A stretch of 35,401 nt of DNA, taken from positions 1-35,401 of the forward strand of contig JAUSDC010000113.1 in NCBI GenBank assembly GCA_030650845.1. The letters are read 5' to 3'. The DNA is from Candidatus Methanoperedens sp. (GTDB lineage: Archaea > Halobacteriota > Methanosarcinia > Methanosarcinales > Methanoperedenaceae). Numbering within the stretch: the stretch's first letter is position 1; each line of letters begins with the position of its first letter. Shown here piece by piece: positions 3,795 to 8,107 of this stretch. The position numbers and the translations under genes were made by a program. The notes beneath the pieces are model-generated. The model ran no database searches, was not told where the DNA came from, and saw nothing but the letters and a program-made list of their open reading frames with translations.

Positions 3795-5309
3795 ATGTAT
3801 TTTAAATACATAGTACCTAATATAAGGGATAAAGGAGGCTTTGCCATAGAGGAAAAATCATCTGAACTTAAACCCATAAAGGCAGCTTATGCAGTACTGG
3901 GTAGCGGTGGCATAGGCCTTGCTCTTGCCAATGAACTCCAAACAAGAGATAAGAATATCATTCTTATAGATAAGGATGCAACAAAGGTAGATACATTAAA
4001 AGAGCAGAACCTCAATGCGCTGCAGGGCGATATAGGGGATACTGATATTTTTGGTAAATTCGACCTGAAATACCTCAAGGCTGTTTTTATCATGAGTTCT
4101 GATATCAAAGCGAATAAAAGTGCTATTAATTATATAAAGAAAACAGCTCCAGATATTCAGGTTGTTACAAGGGCAAATGATAACCAGCAAAAAGAAGAGC
4201 TGGAAGCAGAAGGAGCCGATCTTGTAGTCCTCCCGTCAAAACTCCCGCTAAAGTCTATTGCCCTGGCAATAGTCCAATATATAGAGAAAAACACATCGGT
4301 AAAAATGGCAAAGGATCTGAAAAAATTGATCGCCTCGGTGGGGGAAGGGAAGTTCGCTATCGTAGTCCACAACAATCCTGACCCGGATGCTATCTCAAGT
4401 GCAATGGGCCTGAAAGAGATCGCAGCAAGCGTTGGGGTGAAAGCAGAGATCCATTATAAAGGAAGCATAGGTCATCATGAGAATAAGGCTTTCGTCAATC
4501 TGCTGGATATCGAATTAGATCAATCTACAGATTTTAAGGTCTCTGATTATAAGAAAATTGCCATGATCGAATGCTCGACGCCTGGTACGAACAATATGCT
4601 ACCACCTGACACACAGGTCAGCATAGTAATAGACCACCATCAGGCAGAAATCGAAGATATAAGGGCTGAGTATGTTGATATAAGGCCCAATATCGGTGCG
4701 ACAGCAACCATTATGACAAAGTATCTTCAGGACCTCGATATATTGATCGATACAGAACTTGCCACAGCTCTTTTATACGGGATCAAGGTGGATACTGACG
4801 ATTTCCGCAGGAACACAGACCCGGCAGACCTGATAGCTGCGGCGTATCTTTCCCCACTTGCGAACCACGACATTCTAAGCAGGATAGAAACACCCACCAG
4901 GTCGATAGAGGAAATTGAGATCCTTGGGGATGCCATCAAGAACAGGGAAATAAATGGCAGCTACCTGCTCTCGAACGTAGGACCAATACACAATAGAGAT
5001 GCTCTGGCGCAGGCGGCGGATTATCTGCTCACCCTGGAAGGGATCACAACGACCATCGTTTTTGGGCTGGGAGAGGACCACATTTACATATCTGGAAGAA
5101 GCCGGGATGTCCGTATCAACATTGGTAAGGTGATGCAGGATGCTTTCGGCGCAGAAAAGGGCGGAGGTCATGCAATGCTCGCAGGTGCTCAGATACCGCT
5201 GGGGGTGCTTGGTGGAACAAAGGACAAGCAGACGCTCATGAAACTTGCAGAAGAGGTCGTAGTAAAGCGGCTGCTTTCTGTCATAGGCATACAGAAAGAG
5301 CCTGAGTAA
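3795..5309 (+). CDS. RCK (TrkA-N)-DHH phosphoesterase fusion protein
   Basis: The N-terminal part is a Rossmann-fold TrkA-N/RCK nucleotide-binding domain (YAVLGSGGIGLALANELQT, about residues 32-50, with acidic IDKD at the second strand end). The C-terminal part is a DHH-DHHA1 phosphoesterase: NPDPDAISSA near residue 195, DHHQAE near 280, and GGGHAMLAGA near 456. Metal-binding Asp/His residues appear intact. DHH-DHHA1 enzymes include nanoRNases and cyclic-dinucleotide phosphodiesterases; the RCK part may sense NAD(H) or another nucleotide. No membrane segment is visible. The open frame begins at ATG 3795, but the real start is doubtful: a strong AAAGGAGG at 3831-3838 precedes an in-frame ATA at 3846, which would give a 487-residue protein whose N-terminus fits homologues I recall. 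The Rossmann segment has no canonical start codon between 3798 and it. Confidence 0.85.
   Translation: MYFKYIVPNIRDKGGFAIEEKSSELKPIKAAYAVLGSGGIGLALANELQTRDKNIILIDKDATKVDTLKEQNLNALQGDIGDTDIFGKFDLKYLKAVFIMSSDIKANKSAINYIKKTAPDIQVVTRANDNQQKEELEAEGADLVVLPSKLPLKSIALAIVQYIEKNTSVKMAKDLKKLIASVGEGKFAIVVHNNPDPDAISSAMGLKEIAASVGVKAEIHYKGSIGHHENKAFVNLLDIELDQSTDFKVSDYKKIAMIECSTPGTNNMLPPDTQVSIVIDHHQAEIEDIRAEYVDIRPNIGATATIMTKYLQDLDILIDTELATALLYGIKVDTDDFRRNTDPADLIAAAYLSPLANHDILSRIETPTRSIEEIEILGDAIKNREINGSYLLSNVGPIHNRDALAQAADYLLTLEGITTTIVFGLGEDHIYISGRSRDVRINIGKVMQDAFGAEKGGGHAMLAGAQIPLGVLGGTKDKQTLMKLAEEVVVKRLLSVIGIQKEPE
3801..3808 (+). promoter_or_regulatory. TATA-like box for the RCK-DHH gene
   Basis: TTTAAATA matches the archaeal TATA consensus. 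With the usual spacing, transcription would begin near 3828-3832, just before the AAAGGAGG ribosome site at 3831-3838. A second candidate, ACATATATAG at 3772-3781, would start transcription near 3803. Either placement puts the only upstream ATG (3795) outside the transcript. Confidence 0.4.
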
Positions 5310-5362: not shown

Positions 5363-8107
5363 ATGCAGGACGAGTATCAACTTGATTATTTCAAAGAGAA
5401 TGGCTTCGTACGAAAAACGTGCCCGAAGTGCAAAACGAACTTCTGGACAAGAGATGCAGATACAGAGTTCTGCGGAGACCCGCCCTGTGTTTCTTACTCA
5501 TTCATAGGTGCGCCTGTTTTCAAGAAGGAATACGACATATCATCCATGCGCGAGGCTTATCTCTCCTTTTTCGAGAAGCATGGGCATACAAGGGTGGATC
5601 GATATCCAGTTATCGCACGCTGGCGCGACGACATTTACCTGACCATTGCTTCGATCGCGGATTTTCAGCCATTTGTTACATCAGGGCTTGTTCCCCCTCC
5701 TGCAAATCCTCTCACTATCTCACAGCCATGCATACGGCTTGATGACCTTGACGCAGTTGGAAGAAGCGGCAGGCATCTTACCACATTCGAGATGATGGCT
5801 CACCACTGTTTTAATTCGCGAGGGAATGAGATATACTGGAAGGACAGGACTGTGGAACTATGCGATACTCTTCTTGCTGACCTCGGATGCGATCTTAAAG
5901 CTGTTACCTATAAGGAAAATCCATGGGCAGGCGGAGGCAACGCAGGTCCAAGCGTCGAAGTTATGGTTGGAGGTCTTGAGCTTGCTACCCTTGTGTTCAT
6001 GGACTTAAAGCAGGTAAAAGGCGGCTCAATAGAGATCAAGGGTGAGACATACGAGAAGATGGATAATTACATTGTTGATACAGGCTACGGTCTTGAGAGG
6101 TTCGTGTGGGCATCAAAGGGGTCACCCACGATATATGATGCAGTATTTCCGAAGATCGTGAGCGAATTGATGGACCTTGCAGGTATCGAGCACTCGATAG
6201 ACAATCCAGAATATGCCAGGATGTTCTCGCAGAATGCGCGCTTTGCAGGGGTGATGGATATCAGCGGGCAGGCAAACCTGCTCCAGTTGAGGAAAAAAGT
6301 CGCTGATACCATTGGTACAACTGTTGAGAAACTCCAGAAGCTCATGGTGCCTGTAGAGTCAGTGTACGCCATCACCGATCATTCCAGATGTCTTGCCTTC
6401 ATGCTCGGGGACGGCATCATACCCTCCAATGTGAAAGCGGGATATCTGGCAAGGCTTGTGCTTCGCCGGACGCTTCGATTGATGAAAGAATTGGATATAA
6501 GGGAACCTCTTATCGAGATAATCGAGATGCAGATAAAGAACTTCCCCGAATATCCCGAGTTCAGGGAGCGACTTGATACGATAAGGGAGATCGTGGCACT
6601 TGAAGAGGAAAAGTATGCTGACACCATAGAACGCGGTACAAAACTTGTGAAAAAGACGGCGCTTCATTTTAAGGATAAAAAGGAAAAAATGCCACTTGGT
6701 GAATTGATCCAGCTTTACGACACGCACGGCATCCCGCCTGAGATCACGCGCGAGGTCGCAAAAGAAGCTGGTGTTGAGGTTGAGCTTCCTGATACATTCT
6801 ACTCTCTTGTGGCAAAGAAGCACAGCAAGGCGCAAGAGGAGGAGACCGAAGGGCTAACACTTGACCTTCCACTCACGCGCAAGCTGTATTATGAAGATTC
6901 TGAACAGACAGAATTTTCAGCGAAAGTGCTTGAAGTCATTGAGAACAAGATCATCCTCGACAGGACATTATTTTATCCTGAAGGCGGAGGTCAGCCTGCA
7001 GACCATGGTACTCTATCAATGGAGGATTACGTTGCGAATGTTGCTGATGTCCAGAATATGAATGGTGTCATCGTCCATGAGACTGATTCAGACATTGGAT
7101 TTAAGAAAGGGGATGCAGTTAAAGGAAAAATAGATTGGGAGCGACGCCTTGCTCACATGAGGCATCACACTGCCACGCATATCGTGAACGAATCAGCAAA
7201 AGCAGTGCTTGGAAAACACATCTGGCAGACCGGCGCACAAAAGTCCACTGACAGGGCAAGGCTTGACCTGACGCATTTTAAGCGAATAACCGACGAGGAG
7301 TTCAGGGAAATAGAACTTCTTGCAAACAGAGCAGTTATGAAAAACCAGCCCGTGTATATTGACTGGATGGACAGGATCGAGGCTGAAAAGAAGTACGGGT
7401 TCGTGCTGTACCAGGGGGGTGTGCCTCCTGGGAAAGAAATACGCATCCTGCGCGTGGGAAGCGACGTTGAAGCCTGCGGAGGTACACATGTTTCTAATAC
7501 AGGGCTTATAGGACCGATCAAGCTCATAAAGACAGAGAGGATTCAGGACGGTGTGGAGCGCATTGAATTCTCGGCTGGTGAGGCGGCGGTGAAAAGAATG
7601 CAAGAGAGGGATGAACTACTGAACAAGGCCTCGGATGCGTTGCGAGTTTCGCCGGAGCACTTACCTGACACCGTCAACCGTTTCTTCGATGAATGGAAGG
7701 AATTTAAGAAAGAGAACGAGCGGCTGAAGGCTGAGCTTGCGGAAGTCAGGGTGAAGGCGATGATGGGTGATGCCGTTGAAATAAATGGCTTGAAGGTGCT
7801 TTCAAAGAAAATACAGCATGCAGATGTAGAGGAGCTTATCAAGGCTGCCACTGAGTTCAGCAAGAACGATGATGTAGTTGCAATTCTTGCAAGCGAATCT
7901 GGCGGCGTGAAAATAGTCGTTGCAGCAGGAGCACGCGCTCAGAAGTTGGGTGTGAATGCCGGGGCGATCGTTCGCGAGATGTCAAAGCTTGTGGGCGGCG
8001 GCGGTGGAGGGAAGCCCGGGATAGCGCAGGGCGGAGGGACGGATGCGGCGAGGATAGAGGAGGCGCTGGAGAGAGGAGTGGAGATGGTGAGTGAGAAAAT
8101 GAAGTAA
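5363..8107 (+). CDS. alaS: alanyl-tRNA synthetase, archaeal type
   Basis: A full-length (914 residues) class II AlaRS that charges tRNA-Ala and edits mischarged Ser/Gly. The N-terminus carries the archaeal Cys-rich extension (CPKCKTNFWTRDADTEFC). The aminoacylation core follows, with the class II segment RHLTTFEMMAHHCFN around residues 133-147 and GGGNAGPSVEV after it. The editing domain has the zinc motifs HHTATH near residue 600 and C-x3-H (CGGTH) near 704. The C-Ala domain ends in a run of glycines (GGGGGGKPGIAQGGG). The start at 5363 gives the expected archaeal N-terminus; no strong ribosome site precedes it, so the mRNA may be nearly leaderless. The 227 bases after the gene (8108-8334) contain no gene I can support. 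Confidence 0.96.
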   Translation: MQDEYQLDYFKENGFVRKTCPKCKTNFWTRDADTEFCGDPPCVSYSFIGAPVFKKEYDISSMREAYLSFFEKHGHTRVDRYPVIARWRDDIYLTIASIADFQPFVTSGLVPPPANPLTISQPCIRLDDLDAVGRSGRHLTTFEMMAHHCFNSRGNEIYWKDRTVELCDTLLADLGCDLKAVTYKENPWAGGGNAGPSVEVMVGGLELATLVFMDLKQVKGGSIEIKGETYEKMDNYIVDTGYGLERFVWASKGSPTIYDAVFPKIVSELMDLAGIEHSIDNPEYARMFSQNARFAGVMDISGQANLLQLRKKVADTIGTTVEKLQKLMVPVESVYAITDHSRCLAFMLGDGIIPSNVKAGYLARLVLRRTLRLMKELDIREPLIEIIEMQIKNFPEYPEFRERLDTIREIVALEEEKYADTIERGTKLVKKTALHFKDKKEKMPLGELIQLYDTHGIPPEITREVAKEAGVEVELPDTFYSLVAKKHSKAQEEETEGLTLDLPLTRKLYYEDSEQTEFSAKVLEVIENKIILDRTLFYPEGGGQPADHGTLSMEDYVANVADVQNMNGVIVHETDSDIGFKKGDAVKGKIDWERRLAHMRHHTATHIVNESAKAVLGKHIWQTGAQKSTDRARLDLTHFKRITDEEFREIELLANRAVMKNQPVYIDWMDRIEAEKKYGFVLYQGGVPPGKEIRILRVGSDVEACGGTHVSNTGLIGPIKLIKTERIQDGVERIEFSAGEAAVKRMQERDELLNKASDALRVSPEHLPDTVNRFFDEWKEFKKENERLKAELAEVRVKAMMGDAVEINGLKVLSKKIQHADVEELIKAATEFSKNDDVVAILASESGGVKIVVAAGARAQKLGVNAGAIVREMSKLVGGGGGGKPGIAQGGGTDAARIEEALERGVEMVSEKMK

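Follow-up and report, generated by a model that had tools for sequence, protein, structure and literature searches.

The RCK-DHH-DHHA1 gene of the window (the whole 35,401-nucleotide stretch of DNA analysed here, which comes from a methane-oxidising archaeon) is very probably translated from an AUA codon at position 3846, driven by a strong Shine-Dalgarno (SD) site. A rare AUA start had been one of the explanations offered by a sequence-only reading of this DNA, and it is supported by the presence of an AUH codon (ATA, ATC or ATT), or of UUG or CUG, at the same spacing past GGAGG in most of the genomes that were read from the order, which we take to be the Methanosarcinales, including Methanoperedens. 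Judged from this comparison, the non-canonical start appears to be retained rather than erroneous.

Start region and encoded protein

In the window, AAAGGAGG at 3831–3838 is followed by CTTTGCC (7 nt) and then by ATA at 3846–3848, in frame with the gene, which is the arrangement that had been described. Canonical codons (ATG, GTG and TTG) are absent in frame from the 25 codons past this ATA, a stretch that includes the Rossmann motif, and from the upstream stop to the end of that stretch the frame contains a single canonical codon, the ATG at 3795–3797. The earlier statement that no canonical codon lies in frame from 3798 to the Rossmann motif is thus confirmed. The features discussed below are collected in Table 1.

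Table 1. Positions of the features discussed; entries without a prefix are window coordinates, and G000 is the window's own genome.
Feature	Position	Strand	Remarks
RCK(TrkA_N)-DHH-DHHA1 gene	3846..5309	+	487 codons plus stop; Pfam matches
Shine-Dalgarno site AGGAGG	3833..3838	+	conserved in family alignment
Proposed AUA initiation codon	3846..3848	+	AUH here in most of the order's genomes that were read
TATA-like promoter element TTTTAAATA	3800..3808	+	16 of 31 family members have a match 44–48 nt above the start codon
Rejected in-frame ATG, directly upstream of TATA-like element	3795..3797	+	frame not kept in relatives
alaS, control gene, ATG start	5363..8107	+	Pfam tRNA-synt_2c 4.6e-135
beta-CASP RNase gene, ATT start past GAGG	G000:C7:7491-8726		L097, L252
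Csl4-like exosome gene (ECR1_N), ATT start	G000:C13:1417-2235	-	L103, L312
MazE/AbrB-PhoU regulator, ATA 7 nt past GAGG	L192:9218-10213	-	G063

All three domains of the encoded protein score above their Pfam cut-offs: TrkA_N (6.4e-21; 75.3 bits, cut-off 23.8), DHHA1 (2e-12; 47.9 bits, cut-off 25.9) and DHH (8.7e-12; 45.8 bits, cut-off 28.1). The translation contains DHH and GGGH stretches, which we take to be motifs of a predicted phosphodiesterase-like enzyme. Related solved structures include 3llv, labelled as an exopolyphosphatase-related protein, as well as 9r7o, 5xt3 and 9n0l, and cyclic-dinucleotide phosphodiesterases are also found among the related structures. The likeness of these solved RCK and DHH-DHHA1 proteins to the encoded protein is one of domains, namely its TrkA_N, DHH and DHHA1.

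Codons at the aligned start site and alternative starts

The closest named relatives of the window gene are found in Candidatus Methanoperedens MAGs, with 96 and 95% protein identity. When position 3846 was aligned with its homologues, a check that the sequence-only reading had proposed, 14 of 17 named relatives were found to carry ATA and three ATG (L003, L004, L011); an 18th, distant bacterial match (L018) was left out of this set. The ATA loci comprise the two closest relatives and 12 of the 15 other named Methanoperedenaceae loci, which excludes the sequencing error at 3846 that had also been considered. Many of these named relatives are the same assemblies as members of the larger set described next, so the two counts are not summed. 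In one relative (G026:C43; L017, L051), the RCK-DHH match is spread over two reading frames, and the gene is probably frameshifted there.

We also read the SD-defined site in 109 genomes of the order, made up of 85 of 119 matched genomes and 24 from another search (110 loci were taken, of which L047 was unusable). With only codons close to AUG accepted for assignment, the site holds ATA in 33 genomes, ATC in 22, ATT in 19, TTG in 17, CTG in one and ATG in seven, and is unassigned in 10. AUH codons are therefore present in 74 of the 109 genomes, belonging to families f1, f2, f3 and f5. The unassigned rows are G006 (ATG with a weak SD), G033 (ATA without GGAGG or another clear SD), four f4 genomes, three f3/g5 genomes with canonical codons, and G086. 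ATG at the site was found in G011, G023, G006 and the five genomes that were read from genera g13 and g25, while the four f4 genomes read contain ATG codons and lack GGAGG. As ATG serves some relatives, and the f4 genomes have ATG without GGAGG, an AUH start is not obligatory for this gene.

When any codon is allowed exactly 7 nt past GGAGG and in frame, 82 of the 109 genomes match, with ATA in 32, ATC in 22, ATT in 13, TTG in 12, ATG in two, CTG in one and no other codon. With the SD defined as GGAGG or AGGAG, the spacer in the AUH cases is 7 nt in 67 of 74, 8 nt in four and 9 nt in three. Of the 75 AUH or CTG cases, 50 have no canonical in-frame codon upstream of the site, and 29 have none in the whole frame from the upstream stop to the Rossmann motif, so that in these 29 a canonical start cannot yield the whole domain. 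An isoleucine or leucine inside the protein could produce some of this codon pattern, but neither the in-frame stops upstream of the site nor the absence of other Ile, Leu or Val codons past GGAGG.

Outside the order, GGAGG at a spacing of 5–9 nt with an in-frame AUH codon was found in none of 19 readable genomes (20 fetched), and in 16 of the 19 an in-frame ATG precedes the motif. There are weaker hints in L164 (f12), where the only candidate is a TTG four codons before the motif, in two f28 genomes with GGTG followed by ATA or ATC, and in L172 (f18), where a G-rich stretch precedes an ATC that lies beside an ATG. In family f6 of the same class, no gene match at 1e-40 was obtained in the 18 genomes listed, and 12 genomes beyond that list likewise gave none. 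Within the order, a tree of the N-terminal region, which has few columns and weak deep forks and for which the codons of G006 and G033 were labelled by hand, requires at least 17 codon changes and six changes between ATG and non-ATG codons, with AUH kept in four of five families.

This tree bears on the suggestion that the window codon reflects a recent ATG-to-ATA change in one lineage, merely weakening the start and without function. The small clade of the window adjoins G011 and G023, which have ATG with the same SD at a spacing of 7 nt, and an ATG-to-ATA change as such is therefore possible, as the sequence-only reading had allowed. But ATA, ATC and ATT dominate the rest of the family and recur in three other families, and the SD and its spacing are kept, which makes a functionless recent change very unlikely as the explanation.

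Slightly less probable again is recoding, in which a frameshift, or termination and reinitiation from a short overlapping upstream frame, would bring ribosomes to the gene, and the AUH codon would not be a free-standing start. A frame ending in TAG does overlap the window's ATA as ATAG, and the upstream frame that ends at ATAG is at least 37 codons long in L008 and L009 and 7 codons long in L012. In the window, however, the TAG frame has just one canonical codon, a TTG that precedes the TAG by two codons; moreover, the overlap is not kept in the AUC and AUU relatives, and the leaders of the beta-CASP and Csl4 genes (discussed below) are unrelated. As a side observation upstream of position 3001 in L008 and L009, with the frame read by eye in L009, the ATAG overlap suggests possible translational coupling in that clade.

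Least probable of all is a start at the ATG of 3795 with a longer leader, which would give a 504-residue protein. In its favor, the window offers no other canonical codon upstream in this frame, and in-frame ATGs upstream of the site occur in the close relatives L001, L002 and L003 as well. But this ATG directly precedes the TATA-like box (the sequence-only reading had placed it upstream of, or at, the expected transcription start), its frame is not maintained, and many relatives have an in-frame stop 5–15 codons above the AUH codon. An ATG beside the TATA-like element is present in 13 of 31 family members, with a frame offset of 0 in six, 2 in six and 1 in one. In the family alignment, the segment 3795–3845 is conserved as promoter and SD sequence, and the ATG behaves as part of the promoter; as a start codon, it is rejected. 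Archaeal transcription is expected to start about 25 nt downstream of the TATA element, and by this usual distance the transcript would begin near 3830.

Controls and other candidate genes

The neighboring alaS gene, 53 bp downstream of RCK-DHH, keeps ATG at the aligned start, or adjacent to it, in all 14 readable relatives (of 17 loci). In all 30 genomes compared within the order, aIF1 starts with ATG, which rules out an infC-like AUH start for this factor. Read by eye, nearly all 30 aIF1 loci (L392–L421) begin with ATG-AG(T/C)-TC-GA-ATG, and GGAGG often precedes the ATG by about 12 nt, which is long for such a spacer and unusual.

Chance matches were gauged in a sample of 439 ORFs from G000 (the window together with 40 contigs, each sampled over at most 20 kb) and in 363 ORFs from G063. 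GGAGG at a spacing of 6–8 nt precedes ATG 16 times, GTG three times and TTG twice in G000, and ATG 20 times, TTG three times and GTG twice in G063. Beyond the window's ATA, the G000 sample contains two AUH matches: the first has canonical codons above it, and the second stands immediately before a canonical codon. In G063, RCK-DHH (ATT) is the one AUH case without a canonical codon upstream or in the next 24 codons, and two non-AUH matches (AAA and ACG) likewise have no canonical codon nearby. A scan with 5-mer SDs revealed no convincing excess of AUH before the first canonical codon in either sample (eight AUH in the 439 G000 ORFs, with a mean of 1.37 for each other codon, and five in the 363 G063 ORFs, with 0.94 each). 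Among 296 reciprocal pairs of G063 and G072, AUH gave five raw hits and nine three-codon control sets gave 0–12, with two clear cases at the frame start, RCK-DHH and AbrB-PhoU. Because control codons match as often, raw counts are uninformative and conservation must carry the argument; it is conservation that raises the window's ATA clearly above chance.

Further candidates were taken from frames without a canonical start near the N-terminus, yielding three more families. One encodes a beta-CASP RNase, for which we compared the best 30 loci from 55 matching genomes among 59. The start in these 30 is ATT in 15, ATA in 10, ATC in three and CTG in two, with a GAGG spacing of 7 nt in 21 and 8 nt in seven. 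No canonical codon lies upstream in 29 of the 30, and six, including G000, have none at all before the HxHxDH motif; in G000, the next canonical codon is 59 codons past the ATT, beyond the HGHLDH motif. The aIF1 gene lies about 1 kb upstream of the beta-CASP gene on the same G000 contig.

The second family encodes a Csl4-like exosome protein and, as do the beta-CASP genes, resembles RCK-DHH in design, with ATT in all 26 loci that aligned (of 30) and a GAGG spacing of 7 nt in 24 of these. Past the ATT, there is a recurrent basic N-terminal stretch followed by an acidic linker of variable length, with the frame open to the domain. Only L327 lacks a canonical codon before the domain, and in L329 and L337 a TTG precedes the AUU, so in loci other than L327 an internal or upstream canonical start is possible.

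The third family, an AbrB/PhoU-type regulator, appears to resemble the RCK-DHH arrangement in part: its 30 loci have ATA in 16, ATC in four, ATG in eight and GCA in two, the last probably being paralogues, and the GAGG spacing is 7 nt in 15. Three other frames on G063:C1 also have no canonical codon near the N-terminus, at about 1163009–1163668 on the plus strand (L186), 1215350–1215802 on the plus strand (L188) and 1242692–1244257 on the minus strand (L190). Two of them have signal-peptide-like N-termini, and one resembles methanogenesis marker 3.

By annotation, two of the four families belong to RNA turnover, and RCK-DHH is phosphodiesterase-like; we regard this shared theme as a lead only. 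The E. coli gene pcnB acts in RNA turnover.

Possible mechanism and known counterparts

Based on the arrangement in the window, a short leader, as predicted from the TATA-like box, would carry AGGAGG exactly 7 nt before the AUA, and strong pairing with the 3' end of 16S rRNA would place the AUA in the P site. In the simplest reading, the initiator Met-tRNA would then accept AUA despite the third-position mismatch, presumably giving an N-terminal methionine. An unusual initiator tRNA with an Ile anticodon was also considered: ARAGORN, applied to 30 of 44 tRNA loci found, returned ordinary Met (cat) and Ile (gat) anticodons, and a single locus (L381) received no anticodon. Editing of the AUA in the transcript to an AUG-like codon is unlikely, since AUU and AUC occur at the same site.

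Initiation from such a codon is predicted to be of low efficiency, and the AUH start probably keeps expression low, possibly under selection for low or tunable output of the phosphodiesterase-like enzyme. By analogy with the bacterial cases below, we infer that AUH throttles or tunes these archaeal genes. The weak SD of G006 and the spacing of 8–9 nt in the five ATG genomes of g13 and g25 would fit such output tuning, although these genomes are few and related to one another, the same 8–9 nt spacing occurs in seven AUH cases, and G011 and G023 combine ATG with a spacing of 7 nt.

According to the portions of two papers available (PMC4245954, PMC9410913), E. coli infC and pcnB start at AUU, infC is regulated by its own product IF3, and the pcnB start is termed inefficient and limiting in the title of a paper cited there. 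These genes share with RCK-DHH an AUH-type start confined to specific genes, but they depend on bacterial initiation with IF3, whereas RCK-DHH is archaeal and the fidelity factor aIF1 itself starts at ATG. Excerpts of a third paper (PMC13009471) describe non-canonical starts behind strong, extended SDs in ccpN of Staphylococcus and Bacillus (AUA) and in S. aureus cvfC1 (AUU) and infC (AUA), with those of cvfC1 and ccpN conserved among relatives; in poor medium, Staphylococcus AUA and AUU reporters gave about 10% of the AUG output, and in rich medium ccpN reached up to 30%. Like RCK-DHH, ccpN and cvfC1 thus combine AUA or AUU with a strong SD and conservation among relatives; unlike it, they and infC are bacterial and unrelated, and the archaeal site varies among AUA, AUC, AUU, UUG and CUG across the order.

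A literature search, with most subscription journals outside its scope, found no archaeal gene with an AUH start. Ribo-seq of M. mazei, in the part of the report available (PMC11456600), identified ATG, TTG, GTG and CTG starts for unannotated small ORFs, and the accessible portion of a review of start codons (PMC6412873) does not mention AUU, UUG or GUG.

More tentatively, and with somewhat less than an even chance of being correct, the order may use a class of genes with conserved AUH starts at an almost constant 7 nt past GAGG or GGAGG, including those for the beta-CASP RNase, Csl4 and RCK-DHH, whose output would be set by start-codon stringency. Such a class would be a separately evolved archaeal counterpart of the infC, pcnB and ccpN logic. 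If AUH starts are kept across the order, gene finders limited to ATG, GTG and TTG would misplace or miss such N-termini, and, if this reading is true, the AUH genes would provide ready tests of start-codon fidelity in cultivable members of the order.
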